Assembly: GCF_019218285.1 (NCBI RefSeq)
Contig: NZ_JAHUZG010000001.1
Span: forward strand, 620,001 to 684,000
Direction: 5' to 3'
DNA: 64,000 nt
Source of the DNA: Antarctobacter sediminis
Lineage (GTDB): Bacteria > Pseudomonadota > Alphaproteobacteria > Rhodobacterales > Rhodobacteraceae
Below, in pieces: positions 25,172 through 31,010 of the stretch; position 1 is the stretch's first letter, and each line of letters begins with the position of its first letter. The notes under the pieces are model-generated. The model made no database searches, had not been told where the DNA came from, and worked only from the letters and a program-made list of their open reading frames with translations. The position numbers and the translations under genes are program-made.

Positions 25172-27199
25172 ATGTCCGACAAGGAAAAAGACGCCAGGAT
25201 CTGGTCGGACGTCATCCATCTCATGCCTGCATGGACGTGGGAGGCGGACGCCGACTTTCGGCTTAATTATGTCAATATCCAACATTCCGGCCTGCAAATG
25301 ACCAGCGATCAGCTGATCGGGCTGCGCATCCTTGGGTCCAGCGCGCCGGATGGGGATGAGGCCGGTCTGGACCGTTTGCTGAACGCGATGCGCGCCCATG
25401 AGGAAATTCGGAGTCTCAGCTATGAACGGGTGATGGTGAATGGCCGCCGTGCCGTTCTGATGGATACCGCCGTGCCGCTGAGAGATGAACAGGGGGCTTT
25501 TGCGGGATACCACGGGATCACCATGAATATCAGCGATGTGCTGCAAAAGGCCGAGGTGGCGGATACCCTGATTGCAGGGCTTAACCGCAGGACAGCCGCG
25601 CTGGAGCAAAGCCTTGTGTCCAAGGCCGCGGAACTGACGGAAACCAACCGCCTTTTGACCGAAATCGTCGAGGGGATGGGCGAGGGCCTGGTCGTGACCA
25701 GCGGGACGCGGCTGGATGACCATGAAAACCGCATCTTGCAGGTCAATCCCGCCTATCTTCGCCTGATGGGCCTGTCACCGGCAGACATCCCCGAGGGGAT
25801 GGCGTTCCGAGATCATCTTCAGTTCCTTGTTGAAAACGGGAAGGCCGTAGACGACCCCGAAGTGCACCGCGAGATCGAAGAACTGGTGTCGTCGGGTGAA
25901 AAAGTGACAATTCGCATCCCGGACAGCGGGCGCAGTTTCTACCTGCAAGCCACGCCGCGCCCTTCGGGTGGGCATGTTCTGGTCCATACCGACATCACCG
26001 ACCTGCGCAACCAGAACGCAGCGCTGCGTGCGGCACGGGATGCGGCGGATGTGGCCAACAAGGCCAAGTCGAGCTTTCTGGCAAATATGAGCCATGAGAT
26101 CCGCACGCCGATGAATGGGATCGTTGGTATGGCGGACCTGCTGACGGAAACCGATCTGGATGCCGATCAGGCGGATTACGTAGCAACGATCCGCAGTGCG
26201 GCGCTTGCTCTGACCTCGTTGATCTCGGACATCCTCGATTTCTCCAAGGTCGAGGCGGGGCGGCTTGAGATCGAAGAGGCCCCCTTTGAACTGGACACGC
26301 TGGTAGAGGAGGTCAGCGATCTGCTGACACCGCTTGCGGCGCAAAAGGGGCTGGAAATGCAGATTACCGTTGACCCCGACGTGCCGCGACTTGTCGAAGG
26401 GGATGCGCTGCGCATCCGGCAGGTTCTGATGAACCTCATGGGCAACGCCATCAAGTTCACAATCCTCGGGCGGGTCAGCCTGCATCTGTCCCGCAAGCAC
26501 GCACGCGGGAACGAGATTCGCTTTGCTGTTACCGACTCCGGGATCGGCATCCCGGCCGAACGATTGGCGCAGATCTTTGACCCTTTCGAACAGGTGCACA
26601 CCGGACGGGAAAAGGAATTCGAAGGCACGGGGCTGGGCCTGACCATCAGCAAAAGGCTTGTGGATGCCATGGGTGGCAGCATCGCCGCGCAATCCACCAT
26701 GGGCGAAGGCACACAGTTTCATGTCGATCTGCCGCTACCTGCAGTGGCGGCTGGCGTGCCTCAGAACGCCGAGGTTTCCATGGCGGACATGCGGCTTGAC
26801 GGGATTTCGGTTCTCGTGGTCGAGGACAACCTGACCAATCAGGCGGTTGCCCGCAAGATGCTGGAACGGCGGGGCGCCGCCGTGGTTTTGGCCGAGAACG
26901 GGCTGCGCGCGGTAGAGTTGTATGACCCTGAATGCTTTGACATCGTTCTGATGGACATTTCGATGCCGGTCATGAACGGGTTGGAGGCGACACGCCTGAT
27001 CCGGGAACACCAGCGCCAACGAGGCTGGGCCCATCGGCCGATCGTCGCGCTGACCGGCAACGCCTTCGACAAGGACCGGGACGAGGCCGAAGCCGTGGGC
27101 ATGGACGGTTTTCTCAGCAAACCGGTGCGGCGGGACGCGCTGTTGCTGACCATCGCAACGCATCTGCAATCGGTTCAATTGCGCGCGGCGGCTTCGTAG
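25172..27199 (+). CDS. Cytoplasmic PAS-PAS hybrid histidine kinase
   Basis: This 675-residue protein has no membrane segment. Two PAS-like domains come first (about 10-125 and 160-280), joined by a short coiled coil. A HisKA domain follows with phospho-acceptor His308 in FLANMSHEIRTPMNGIVGM. The HATPase domain has an N-box around RIRQVLMNLMGNAIKFT and G-boxes DSGIGIP and GTGLGLTISKRLV. The C-terminal receiver has acidic residues at about 551, phospho-Asp595 (IVLMDISMPVMNG), and Lys in FLSKPVRR. It would sense an intracellular cue through PAS and pass phosphate to an unlinked Hpt protein; no Hpt or output gene is adjacent. GGAGG lies 12 bases upstream of the ATG. It is inserted on the plus strand between ilvN and ilvI. 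Confidence 0.92.
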   Translation: MSDKEKDARIWSDVIHLMPAWTWEADADFRLNYVNIQHSGLQMTSDQLIGLRILGSSAPDGDEAGLDRLLNAMRAHEEIRSLSYERVMVNGRRAVLMDTAVPLRDEQGAFAGYHGITMNISDVLQKAEVADTLIAGLNRRTAALEQSLVSKAAELTETNRLLTEIVEGMGEGLVVTSGTRLDDHENRILQVNPAYLRLMGLSPADIPEGMAFRDHLQFLVENGKAVDDPEVHREIEELVSSGEKVTIRIPDSGRSFYLQATPRPSGGHVLVHTDITDLRNQNAALRAARDAADVANKAKSSFLANMSHEIRTPMNGIVGMADLLTETDLDADQADYVATIRSAALALTSLISDILDFSKVEAGRLEIEEAPFELDTLVEEVSDLLTPLAAQKGLEMQITVDPDVPRLVEGDALRIRQVLMNLMGNAIKFTILGRVSLHLSRKHARGNEIRFAVTDSGIGIPAERLAQIFDPFEQVHTGREKEFEGTGLGLTISKRLVDAMGGSIAAQSTMGEGTQFHVDLPLPAVAAGVPQNAEVSMADMRLDGISVLVVEDNLTNQAVARKMLERRGAAVVLAENGLRAVELYDPECFDIVLMDISMPVMNGLEATRLIREHQRQRGWAHRPIVALTGNAFDKDRDEAEAVGMDGFLSKPVRRDALLLTIATHLQSVQLRAAAS

Positions 27200-28414: not shown

Positions 28415-30169
28415 TCACACCAGAACGGCACCTTTGCCGGCAATGGCGTTGGTGGCCTTGGCGTCCCCCAGCAGCATCTTGTTGTGCGGCTCGCCCGAGG
28501 GGATCATCGGGAAGCAGTTTTCGTGCTTTTCAACGAGGCAATCAAAGATCACCGGGCCGTCATGGTCCAGCATTTCCATAATCGCATCGTCAAGATCCGC
28601 GGGATCCTTGCAGATGATGCCTTTGGCACCAAAGGCCTCGGCCAGCTTGACGAAATCGGGCAGCGCCTCGGACCAGGAGTGCGAATACCGCTCACCATGC
28701 AGAAGCTGCTGCCACTGACGCACCATGCCAAGGCGTTCGTTGTTCAGGATGAACTGCTTGACCGGCAGGCGGTACTGAACCGCGGTTCCCATTTCCTGCA
28801 TGTTCATCAGCCAAGAAGCCTCGCCCGCGACATTGATGACCAAGGCTTCGGGGTGGGCAATCTGCACGCCGATGGAAGCAGGGAAACCATAGCCCATGGT
28901 GCCAAGGCCACCGGAGGTCATCCAGCGGTTCGGATCTTCAAAGCCAAGGTATTGCGCCGCCCACATCTGGTGCTGTCCGACCTCGGTGGTGATGTACCGG
29001 TCTCGGCCCTTGGTCAGGGCCTCAAGGCGGGCAAGCGCGTGCTGCGGCTTGATCGAACCTTCGGAAGGTTTGAACTTGAGGCAGTCGACCTTTTTCCACT
29101 CTTCGATCTGCGCCCACCACTTGGCCAGCGCCTCGCGGTTGACCTTGCGGCCGCGGGCCTTCCAAAGGTTCAGCACGTCTTCCAGCACATGGCCCACATC
29201 GCCGATGATCGGCGTGTCGGTCTTGATGACCTTGTTGATCGACGACGGGTCGATATCAATATGCGCCTTGTGCGAGTTCGGGCTGAAGGCATCAAGCCGA
29301 CCGGTGATCCGGTCATCGAAACGTGCGCCAATGTTGATCAGCAGATCGCAGCCATGCATGGCAAGGTTGGCCTCGTAAAGACCATGCATCCCGAGCATGC
29401 CCAGCCACTGCCGGCCCGAGGCCGGGTAGGCACCAAGACCCATCAGCGTCGAGGTGATCGGAAAACCGGTGGCATCCACCAGTTCGCGCAACAACTGGCT
29501 GGCTGCGGGGCCAGAGTTGATAACGCCGCCGCCGGTGTAGAAAATCGGCTTTTCCGCGGTTTCGATCTCTTCGACCAGCGCCTCGATCATCGCCATGTCG
29601 CCTTTGACTTGCGGCTGGTAATGGCTGGTCACGGTCTTGGGGATGCCCTGATACTGCGCGCTGGCGAATTGGACGTCCTTGGGAATGTCGATCAGCACCG
29701 GACCGGGACGGCCCGACGTCGCAACATGGAACGCCTCGTGGATGGTCGAAGACAGCCGCGCAGTGTCCTTCACCAGCCAGTTGTGCTTGGTGCAGGGGCG
29801 GGTGATGCCCACGGTATCTGCCTCCTGAAAGGCGTCCGAGCCAATCATGAAGGTTGGCACCTGTCCGGTGAGGACGACAATCGGGATCGAGTCCATCAGC
29901 GCGTCGGTCAGGCCGGTGACGGCGTTGGTCGCACCGGGCCCCGAGGTCACAAGGACAACGCCGGGCTTGCCGGTCGAGCGCGCATACCCTTCGGCGGCGT
30001 GAACCGCACCCTGTTCGTGGCGAACAAGGATGTGGCGAATGTCATTCTGCTGAAAGACCTCGTCGTAAATCGGTAGTACAGCGCCGCCAGGGTAGCCGAA
30101 TACCGTGTCCACACCCTGGTCCTTGAGGGCCTGAACCACCATTTTCGCTCCGGTCATCTGACGTGTCAT
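28415..30169 (-). CDS. ilvI: Acetolactate synthase large (catalytic) subunit
   Basis: This 584-residue ThDP and FAD enzyme makes 2-acetolactate or 2-aceto-2-hydroxybutyrate, the first common step of valine, leucine and isoleucine synthesis. The N-terminal pyrimidine-binding domain has the catalytic Glu in VRHEQGAVHAAEGYARS, preceded by FGYPGGAVLPIYDEV. The FAD-binding middle domain includes IGARFDDRITGRLD. The C-terminal ThDP-diphosphate domain is present, though the GDG position reads NVAGEASWLMNMQE here rather than GDG-S. The ATG at 30169 has GGAGA upstream; an in-frame start six codons earlier is possible. Expression is controlled by the leader peptide and attenuator directly upstream, and a strong terminator follows the gene. 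Confidence 0.96.
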   Translation of the reverse strand: MTRQMTGAKMVVQALKDQGVDTVFGYPGGAVLPIYDEVFQQNDIRHILVRHEQGAVHAAEGYARSTGKPGVVLVTSGPGATNAVTGLTDALMDSIPIVVLTGQVPTFMIGSDAFQEADTVGITRPCTKHNWLVKDTARLSSTIHEAFHVATSGRPGPVLIDIPKDVQFASAQYQGIPKTVTSHYQPQVKGDMAMIEALVEEIETAEKPIFYTGGGVINSGPAASQLLRELVDATGFPITSTLMGLGAYPASGRQWLGMLGMHGLYEANLAMHGCDLLINIGARFDDRITGRLDAFSPNSHKAHIDIDPSSINKVIKTDTPIIGDVGHVLEDVLNLWKARGRKVNREALAKWWAQIEEWKKVDCLKFKPSEGSIKPQHALARLEALTKGRDRYITTEVGQHQMWAAQYLGFEDPNRWMTSGGLGTMGYGFPASIGVQIAHPEALVINVAGEASWLMNMQEMGTAVQYRLPVKQFILNNERLGMVRQWQQLLHGERYSHSWSEALPDFVKLAEAFGAKGIICKDPADLDDAIMEMLDHDGPVIFDCLVEKHENCFPMIPSGEPHNKMLLGDAKATNAIAGKGAVLV

Positions 30170-30207: not shown

Positions 30208-30243
30208 AAAAAAGCCCCCGAGGGTCAGTCGGGGGCGCATGGG
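30208..30243 (-). promoter_or_regulatory. ilv attenuator: terminator and competing antiterminator arm
   Basis: On the minus strand an 8-bp terminator stem (GCCCCCGA at 30236-30229 with TCGGGGGC at 30221-30214, 7-base loop) is followed by six U at 30213-30208. A second, mutually exclusive pairing is possible: GGCGCATGGG, inside the end of the leader peptide at 30279-30270, pairs perfectly (10 bp) with CCCATGCGCC at 30243-30234, which overlaps the first arm of the terminator by three bases. A ribosome stalled at the Leu/Val/Ile codons would leave the antiterminator free. One that reaches the stop codon would cover it and let the terminator form. The mechanism is inferred from the layout. Confidence 0.85.
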
Positions 30244-30262
30244 GACCTTTAGGGTTTCCGGG

Positions 30263-30310
30263 TTACCGGCCCATGCGCCTTGTTCCTACGATTACCACTA
30301 GCGTGGACAT
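30263..30310 (-). CDS. ilvL: ilv leader peptide (attenuation sensor)
   Basis: This is a 15-residue open frame, MSTLVVIVGTRRMGR, with an ideal ribosome site (AAAGGAG nine bases before the ATG). It carries five consecutive branched-chain codons (CTA GTG GTA ATC GTA, that is Leu-Val-Val-Ile-Val) and a TAA stop just before the antiterminator/terminator region. It lies about 95 bases upstream of the ilvI start and behind a promoter-like sequence. This is the classical arrangement of amino-acid biosynthetic attenuators: low levels of charged Leu, Val or Ile tRNA stall the ribosome and permit transcription into ilvI. The peptide itself probably has no function. It is much shorter than the 32-residue enteric ilvL. 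Confidence 0.92.
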   Translation of the reverse strand: MSTLVVIVGTRRMGR

Positions 30311-30338
30311 GCCCGAGGCTCCTTTGTATCGCGCGGGG

Positions 30339-30367
30339 ACACTATGGCGCGAGTCACGGGGCGTCAA
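30339..30367 (-). promoter_or_regulatory. Probable sigma-70 promoter of the ilvL-ilvI unit
   Basis: On the minus strand TTGACG (30367-30362) and TAGTGT (30344-30339) are 17 bases apart. They would start transcription around 30332, about 20 bases before the leader ATG. The -35 box is strong and the -10 box weak. Confidence 0.55.
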
Positions 30368-30552
30368 CCGTTGATGTGGCAGAAAGCAAATTTCGTGGCA
30401 GCCGTCGGCGGCTTTGCGAAAATTTCCGCGAGTCGGATCGGGGCGATCCATGCAGAAATGCTGTGCAGCCATGCGCATATCCATGATTGCGGAGATGAGG
30501 CATTGTCTGGCAAGTGCTGAACCAAACAGTTCAGTTCGCAACGGAGGCCATC

Positions 30553-30705
30553 ATGCTGCGATCCCGACATAACCGCGAGTTCACCCGCTTCAAGGCCATC
30601 TCTCTGATGGCGCTGATCCTTCTGGCCTTTACGCTTGGCGGCGGCGGCCAGACAGCCGGGGCCGGCACGGTTCCCGCCGCGGTGGCCGTTCACTGGTATC
30701 CTTGA
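30553..30705 (+). CDS. Small hydrophobic protein, paralogue of the next gene
   Basis: This 50-residue protein has a basic N-terminus (LRSRHNREFTRFKA), one hydrophobic helix (SLMALILLAFTLGGGG), then a short tail ending in VPAAVAVHWYP. GGAGG lies five bases before the ATG. It could be a cleaved signal peptide with a roughly 20-residue mature peptide or a single-span membrane protein. It aligns with the small protein at 30801 in the pattern R-F-T-K-A-L-A-L-L-A-LGG-G-A-T...PA.V..W. No database family is recognised. An inverted repeat (CTGAAC-N6-GTTCAG at 30517-30534) lies just upstream and could be an operator. Confidence 0.5.
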   Translation: MLRSRHNREFTRFKAISLMALILLAFTLGGGGQTAGAGTVPAAVAVHWYP

Positions 30706-30800
30706 CGGTTCTGCAACAATCACGCGCGGCAACGTGAATTGTGCGAAGGGGCAGGTTGGGCGATGCTAAAGGCGTAGCAATAGGAGACGAGGGTCTCGAC

Positions 30801-31010
30801 ATGACAAAAAATGTATTTTTCCGCGACTTCACGATCTGCAAGGCGGTGGCGCTGGTTGCGTTGATGGGTCTTGCAGCGGCGCTTGGCGGCGTGCCCAAGG
30901 GCGGGACGGCGCTGGCCGAAACGGCAACATCCGAGGCCAAGCTGATCCCGGCGACGGTCTACAAATTCTGGGACGAGTGCGACACCGAAAAGACCGGCGT
31001 CGACCTCTGA
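30801..31010 (+). CDS. Small secreted or membrane protein, paralogue of the previous gene
   Basis: This 69-residue protein has a basic start (TKNVFFRDFTICKA), a hydrophobic core (VALVALMGLAAALGG) and a possible signal-peptidase site near ALAETA. A mature acidic tail of about 35 residues follows, ending IPATVYKFWDECDTEKTGVDL. Its start region is unusual: GAGAC and GTCTC pair around a GAGG loop at 30784-30797, so one candidate ribosome site sits in a hairpin loop directly before the ATG, with AGGAGA just upstream as the other candidate. It is co-directional with the related 50-residue gene, 95 bases downstream of it. Its role is unknown. Confidence 0.6.
   Translation: MTKNVFFRDFTICKAVALVALMGLAAALGGVPKGGTALAETATSEAKLIPATVYKFWDECDTEKTGVDL

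Follow-up and report, generated by a model that had tools for sequence, protein, structure and literature searches.

A candidate ribosome-mediated attenuator upstream of ilvI in Rhodobacteraceae and its relatives upstream of Bcr/CflA-type transporter genes

Attenuation of ilv operons is classical in enteric bacteria, and the region upstream of ilvI in Antarctobacter sediminis raises the question whether this gene is controlled in a comparable manner and where its leader comes from. The locus lies in a window of 64,000 nucleotides, by which we mean the whole stretch of DNA that was analyzed. A sequence-only reading had proposed a leader attenuator with promoter-like boxes, an AAAGGAG motif, a 15-residue frame and a U-tailed terminator in front of ilvI: all of these elements were located, on the minus strand between 30367 and 30208, with ilvI as the next gene downstream.

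Anatomy and conservation of the ilvI leader

The element follows the 5′→3′ order promoter boxes, Shine–Dalgarno sequence, leader ORF, antiterminator arms, terminator and ilvI (Table 1), and an intrinsic terminator thus lies between leader and gene. As had been claimed, the antiterminator starts inside the leader end, its 5′ arm GGCGCATGGG lying within codons 11–14. The ilvI product carries three TPP-enzyme domains in a Pfam scan, and its nearest named IlvI relatives belong to Rhodobacteraceae, e.g., Alloyangia and Salipiger. In the genome of origin (5.1 Mb), a single site has the exact hairpin pattern, and a search of the whole window against Rfam at the gathering score returned tmRNA models and nothing else.

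Table 1. Features of the ilvI leader region in the window, in 5′→3′ order of the minus strand.
Feature	Position	Strand	Details and basis
Sigma-70-like promoter	30339..30367	-	TTGACG 30367-30362, 17-nt spacer, TAGTGT 30344-30339; sequence
Shine–Dalgarno sequence AAAGGAG of the leader	30319..30325	-	sequence
Leader ORF MSTLVVIVGTRRMGR with TAA stop	30263..30310	-	sequence; frame recurs in relatives
Control codons 4–8, CTA GTG GTA ATC GTA (Leu Val Val Ile Val)	30287..30301	-	sequence, codon bias, mask folding
Antiterminator 5′ arm GGCGCATGGG, within leader codons 11–14	30270..30279	-	folding, alignment
Small apical hairpin CCGG-UAAC-CCGG, stop codon at loop	30258..30269	-	MFE fold of the window leader
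Second small apical hairpin ACC-CUAAA-GGU	30245..30255	-	MFE fold of the window leader
Antiterminator 3′ arm CCCATGCGCC	30234..30243	-	folding, alignment
GCC common to antiterminator 3′ arm and terminator	30236-30234	-	sequence
Intrinsic terminator GCCCCCGA-loop-TCGGGGGC-TTTTTT (six T)	30208..30236	-	sequence, covariation
ilvI, acetolactate synthase large subunit, 584 aa and stop	28415..30169	-	ATG at 30169; presumed controlled gene

Two further observations concern the surroundings of the element. The ilvH gene (TIGR00119; 24427-24900, minus strand) is found about 3.5 kb downstream of ilvI, from which it is separated by an acyltransferase gene and a histidine-kinase-like gene on the opposite strand (25172-27199, plus strand); co-transcription of ilvI and ilvH in the window looks unlikely. 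Of 78 named relatives, 74 have ilvH downstream of ilvI in the same orientation, with a gap of 94–2776 nt. Moreover, two small plus-strand ORFs just upstream of the promoter (30514-30705 and 30741-31010) contain alike hydrophobic stretches, FTRFKAISLMALILLAFTLGGG and FTICKAVALVALMGLAAALGG, and are possibly duplicated small genes.

Taken by itself, the fold of the window leader is unexceptional: its z-score is −1.74, and 9 of 200 shuffled sequences fold equally well. This single-sequence value is what could be held in favor of chance hairpins accompanied by the ordinary terminator of an upstream transcript, with a peptide that is never translated. We consider such an explanation vanishingly improbable, since relatives throughout the family share the frame, the codon bias, the position of the stop and the placement; it is this conservation of leader, hairpin and terminator in the compared sequences, and not the folding of one of them, that excludes chance.

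The recurrence was assessed with two covariance models, R1 built from ilvI leaders only and R2 built from 25 sequences that comprise ilvI-type leaders and the transporter-type leaders described below; the window leader scores 92.9 bits with R2, to which it contributed itself. R2 matches 171 of 198 evenly drawn family genomes at E≤0.001, in a draw whose strict filters lose weak matches; seven of these matches are weak (E 6e-6 to 5e-4), and at least one of the 171 lies at the MFS transporter gene. Among the 150 matches listed, all 133 that could be compared lie 23–99 nt upstream of the ilvI match on the same strand, the ilvI places of the other 17 not being among those listed. A second set consists of 110 ilvI upstream regions, which include the window and some near-duplicates; its named loci (L006-L085) were chosen as the best IlvI matches and are therefore close relatives. 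The exact arms CGCATGGG...CCCATGCG are present in 92 of the 110 regions, and both arms, exact or changed, together with a T run in 107, by patterns that were widened after misses had been seen; the three dropped regions have an interrupted T run (L062), lack the leader (L084) or are cut by a contig end (L085). Filtering at 85% identity kept 84 of the 107 leaders for the alignment and the codon counts. Within the roughly 75 nt that precede the aligned leader, all 84 non-redundant relatives contain a TTGAC motif, compared with 6% in shuffled sequence, and in 78 of them a loosely defined −10-like hexamer follows after 16–19 nt; from such conserved promoter-like boxes, transcription may start upstream of the leader.

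The leader itself consists of a short ORF in which codons for the products of the pathway stand in a row, Leu-Val-Val-Ile-Val. When the peptide sequence was left unconstrained, a start preceded by a Shine–Dalgarno sequence opened a frame of 15 codons in 63 of 74 leaders, of 16 codons in six and of 14 codons in two. The three leaders without such a frame are L048, whose start at 15 has no Shine–Dalgarno-like match, L052 and L070. The commonest pattern is M-x-x-L-V-V-I-V-G-x-x-R-M-G-R-stop, and the C-terminal RMGR is present in 65 of the 74 relatives' leaders. The comparison proposed in the sequence-only reading hence turned out in its favor as regards the 15-codon frame and both stems, which recur across Rhodobacteraceae. 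A codon parse that required 14–17 codons and R-M-like endings succeeded for 82 of 84 leaders and assigned 15 codons to 74 of these 82, a count that is partly a consequence of its construction. In the parsed leaders, leucine is encoded by CTA in 49 of 109 cases compared with 2.2% in flanking ORFs (Fisher p 4e-49), and valine by GTA in 123 of 225 cases compared with 8.1% (Fisher p 6e-70), both tests ignoring relatedness. That control codons should be rare was proposed long ago for the leu leader and has been described as an oversimplification in other cases (PMC1183508).

Two of the deviating leaders deserve description. L070 (2226-2342) retains the hairpin, in which one pair is compensated, but neither the 15-codon frame nor the branched-chain run. 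In L052 (4843-4962) the leader reads MATLVVIVGT and then meets an in-frame TAG at codon 11; judging from the folding of the other leaders, a ribosome at this codon would still mask the arm.

Paired arms and modeled ribosome positions

The antiterminator had been described as a 10-bp pairing that overlaps the terminator by three bases. The pairing itself was recovered, at a shorter length: its core comprises 9 bp, and a tenth pair is formed in 47 of 84 sequences only, for which reason the shared stretch, GCC in the window as stated, amounts to 2–3 nt across the relatives. The nine core pairs are nearly invariant, both-sided changes being found in 2 of 840 cells (one in L066, one in L070; 1 of 500 shuffles), and the 94% of cells that are paired equal the shuffled mean of 93.9%, so that column composition alone suffices. 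As the arms hardly vary, covariation is thin here. The search for compensatory changes, likewise suggested by the sequence-only reading, gave fair support for the terminator: 21 of 672 cells are changed on both sides, a number reached by none of 500 shuffles, although sliding the terminator by one column still yields 17 two-sided changes, the C-rich and G-rich arms still pairing. Such changes occur somewhere in five of the eight pairs, and all 84 leaders have the bottom pair intact.

The invariance of the nine antiterminator core pairs in the 84 non-redundant relatives could also mean that hairpin and terminator mainly yield a small RNA or peptide acting on a target in trans, an activity that would be compatible with attenuation in cis. 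A distant relative is listed in Rfam as a small RNA (see below), and the trp attenuator of Sinorhizobium meliloti gives rise to a trans-acting peptide (PMC7298713). We nevertheless regard this as rather unlikely: the 5′ arm serves at once as coding sequence for the peptide end and as pairing partner of the 3′ arm, a double duty that may explain the constraint, and the arms do vary, with compensation in L066 and L070 and frequent changes in the transporter-type leaders.

An outer helix of at least six pairs is predicted for 74 of 74 ilvI-type leaders compared with 10 of 14 transporter-type leaders. In the MFE folds the apical hairpins are common, not universal: the first appears in 41 of 74 ilvI-type and 4 of 14 transporter-type leaders, the second in 34 of 74 and 0 of 14, respectively. 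All 88 aligned leaders, among them the 25 from which the model was built, have a stop triplet 13 nt beyond the first position of the 9-bp core in the 5′ arm, and consequently a terminating ribosome would cover this arm.

We then modeled the ribosome as a mask that extends from 12 nt behind to 15 nt ahead of the first nucleotide in the P site; pairing was calculated for each A-site codon by equilibrium folding, which ignores kinetics. With Leu4, Val5, Val6 or Ile7 in the A site, the probability of the terminator base in the window leader is 0.00–0.04; from Val8 to the stop it is 0.73–1.00. The proposition that stalling at the control codons prevents the terminator is thereby reproduced in the model, in which the terminator is lost at codons 4–7 and regained from codon 8 or 9. 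A 12-nt mask results in antitermination at all five control codons including Val8 and at no later one (Gly9 not), a 16–18-nt mask shifts the border to Ile7, and mask-dependent outliers are seen at the stop codon (0.42 at 14 nt) and at Arg15 (0.40 at 17 nt). Over 74 leaders, the mean is 0.27–0.39 at the control codons compared with 0.89–0.95 later; the terminator exceeds 0.5 at a given control codon 4–7 in 24–42% of them. With codons 2–3 in the A site the model likewise favors the terminator. The control codons thus coincide with those positions at which stalling can matter: in silico, the antiterminator is freed at the control codons and masked at the stop, with the exceptions given above.

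In the enteric scheme an untranslated leader terminates. The sequence-only reading had missed that the opposite is predicted here: without a ribosome, the terminator-base probability is 0.02 in the window leader (mean 0.37 over 74 leaders), so that the untranslated window leader favors the antiterminator, read-through is predicted and an enteric-type protector is absent from the model.

Anatomy, conservation, codon bias and thermodynamic feasibility of the ilvI switch being established, leader translation, the response to starvation and read-through may be envisaged as follows. A ribosome would translate the 15-codon peptide while RNA polymerase transcribes the leader. If tRNA-Leu, tRNA-Val and tRNA-Ile are charged, the ribosome would reach the stop codon and cover GGCGCATGGG, which is encoded by the last codons of the peptide, thereby allowing the terminator to close. 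If branched-chain aminoacyl-tRNAs are scarce, it would stall at codons 4–8 and leave this arm free to pair with CCCATGCGCC, which would take the bottom 2–3 nt of the terminator stem and let transcription proceed into ilvI. We assume that the 5–6 bp of terminator stem left after this loss do not suffice for termination. That anatomy can mislead is illustrated by Streptomyces ilvB, where changed candidate control codons had no effect (PMC1262725). On the strength of conservation and modeling, we hold it to be very probable that the element is a ribosome-mediated transcription attenuator of ilvI. The small overlap would make it a clean case in which to ask how little competition suffices for antitermination.

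Relatives upstream of transporter genes

A finding that the sequence-only reading had missed emerges from the comparison beyond the family, where relatives of the leader precede a transporter gene. R1 matches 22 of 385 evenly drawn class genomes at E≤0.01, again after strict filters by which weak matches are lost, and five of the 22 lie within the family. No ilvI occurs within 1.5 kb on either side of the eleven strong matches outside it, L130-L140, which come from ten families and have E values of 3e-15 to 8e-5; in all eleven, a frame for an MFS transporter follows the leader, its first codon lying 135–186 nt beyond the beginning of the leader match in ten loci and having been set by hand in L138. 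The MFS proteins of L131-L140 are 45–68% identical to that of L130, and four of five scanned proteins pass the cut-off of TIGR00710 (Bcr/CflA family), L140 falling just short. The leader peptides, among them MHILIVVVGERRLDR, MTVTTVVVGAWRLDR, MNTGVVLVGSRRMDR and MHLLNTVVVGARRPGR, contain mostly valine with mixed codons, and the 5′ arm is often altered (RRMGR to RRLDR). R2 matches 26 of the same 385 genomes, its strong matches outside the family being in the same eleven genomes; class matches of 26–30 bits were left out of the counts. By eye, the weak R1 matches L141-L147 contain no leader of this type. The window leader thus belongs, by sequence comparison, to a family that is also found outside Rhodobacteraceae upstream of a Bcr/CflA-type MFS gene.

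Within Rhodobacteraceae, MFS homologues are encoded in 56 of 61 genomes, and a leader precedes the MFS gene in 3 of 30 inspected loci (L168, L169, L171), that of L169 encoding a peptide without a branched-chain run. The respective genomes (G197, G193, G190) have a single R2 match each, which was assigned to the MFS gene by coordinates in G197 and by score in G193 (near a listed row) and G190 (extrapolated). Their ilvI, which is present in all three, therefore seems to be without a leader.

Mask folding of 13 MFS leaders gave terminator values mostly above about 0.9 from the valine run on, with dips at valine codons in L135, L137 and L168 (0.37–0.49) and low values throughout in L171 (0.28–0.66). 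In the absence of a clear switch, the same equilibrium mechanism is unsupported for these leaders. An element whose relatives precede an efflux-type transporter gene might mainly sense slow translation of any cause, e.g., by ribosome-targeting antibiotics, for which sensing uORFs exist (PMC12121999; PMC12218461), the branched-chain codons being a legacy. This appears improbable to us for the ilvI leader: its target in the family is ilvI, and a run that usually reads Leu-Val-Val-Ile-Val and is rich in the rare CTA and GTA codons fits amino-acid sensing, whereas MFS leaders have mostly valine in mixed codons.

A still more distant form may be represented by Atu_C8 ("Rhizobiales sRNA", RF02502), the Rfam family that the window leader matches best. 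The two align from end to end at 28.6 bits (E 0.0006 when 271 nt are searched), which falls short of the gathering score of 50. In 36 genomes of one family, six exceed this cut-off (near 1500 in loci L002, L118, L119, L120, L121 and L122); over 190 class genomes, three reach E≤0.001 and one lies above the cut-off. All six loci encode valine-rich peptides such as MRMMQVSVVVGRRMGKAA, which have R-M-G or R-V-G close to the C-terminus, and are followed by a homologous MFS gene (identified by tblastn at 55% identity in L120), and R2 scores five of them at E≤0.0008 and L120 at 0.024. On reading, no Atu_C8-type leader was found in L003 and L004; L005 overlaps L004. Two features set Atu_C8 apart: about 7 nt lie between its hairpin and its terminator, and its ORF starts at or near the presumed transcript start as judged from promoter-like boxes, which suggests a leaderless ORF. 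There is precedent for the latter in the trp attenuator of S. meliloti (PMC10117765). Sequence and gene order considered, Atu_C8 looks like a distant form of the window leader and probably acts as an attenuator, not as an independent sRNA; a search for the origin of its name found nothing.

We also scanned 84 ilvI loci of other families (from 19 genomes and from 65 of those 129 genomes of other families that had a match; L267 provides only 83 nt upstream) with R2 and obtained no convincing match, the best E being 0.065. On the basis of these 84 loci, we rejected the view that the element is an ancient ilvI leader of Alphaproteobacteria. A simple ORF search found a branched-chain run upstream of ilvI in seven of these 84 loci. 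Four of the seven (L278, L288, L298, L316) look plausible, with short ORFs 195–229 nt upstream of ilvI whose peptides differ from that of the window; they are possibly independent ilv leaders.

The gene neighborhood differs as well: in eight of nine other-family loci checked, a frame with a C-terminal motif that we take to be that of miaA ends 105–200 nt upstream of ilvI, and the upstream frame of L255 matches Pfam IPPT, whereas none of 78 family loci, some on short contigs, has a match. The ilvI neighborhood has thus changed in Rhodobacteraceae. The simplest reading of this distribution, from which the direction is deduced, is that ilvI co-opted the leader from a transporter gene. In its full form, the scenario would be that the leader first served a Bcr/CflA-type MFS gene in Alphaproteobacteria, where its valine-rich run sensed valine shortage or slowed translation and where it seems to be leaderless in the lineage known to Rfam as Atu_C8, was moved in front of ilvI in Rhodobacteraceae as a promoter–leader–terminator cassette and was re-tuned there to Leu-Val-Val-Ile-Val; the three family genomes with a leader at the transporter gene, which have no second match, would then have kept the earlier arrangement. 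We judge the case for and against this scenario to be evenly balanced. Should the move have taken place, the origin of an attenuator control run and its re-tuning become directly testable, and a branched-chain-related or translation-stress role is hinted at for the MFS transporter clade.

Comparison with known systems

Attenuation of ilv in Caulobacter is reportedly the subject of a 1994 study by Tarleton et al. A later paper mentions attenuation of Caulobacter ilvBN/ilvIH with a leader peptide and a terminator (PMC4117421), and the resemblance extends to Ile/Val codons in this peptide and an acetolactate synthase gene downstream. Furthermore, an alphaproteobacterial "ilvB leader peptide" (PMC1273637) and an "ilvIH cis regulatory" element of S. 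meliloti (PMC2573895) are cited from Vitreschak et al. 2004. What distinguishes the window leader is that none of the 84 other-family ilvI loci matches it. With enteric ilvGMEDA and ilvBN it would share the principle that the choice between antiterminator and terminator depends on ribosomes stalled at branched-chain codons. It differs in the length of the peptide (15 aa vs 32 aa in E. coli; PMC6123439), in the position of an antiterminator arm inside the ORF end, in the terminator overlap of 2–3 nt and, in the model, in lacking a protector hairpin. A computed candidate for ribosome-mediated attenuation from the same taxonomic order, the uORFC-8-2 motif of cysS in Rhodobacterales, is set apart through Cys codons and its target cysS (PMC8632094). 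A literature search by titles and abstract beginnings, with most subscription journals outside its coverage, found neither a Rhodobacterales ilvI leader nor an attenuator of a Bcr/CflA transporter in Alphaproteobacteria.

Ribosome-mediated attenuation and alphaproteobacterial ilv leaders are therefore already in print, and the ilvI switch represents a known type in a compact and well-conserved form. New is the homology of this leader to a valine-rich leader before a Bcr/CflA-type MFS gene, together with its lack of a match at the 84 other-family ilvI loci. The part worth following is a leader that, as its sequence indicates, is shared by two unrelated target genes: down to the peptide ending and the hairpin, it would serve a gene for biosynthesis in Rhodobacteraceae and one for a transporter in other families.
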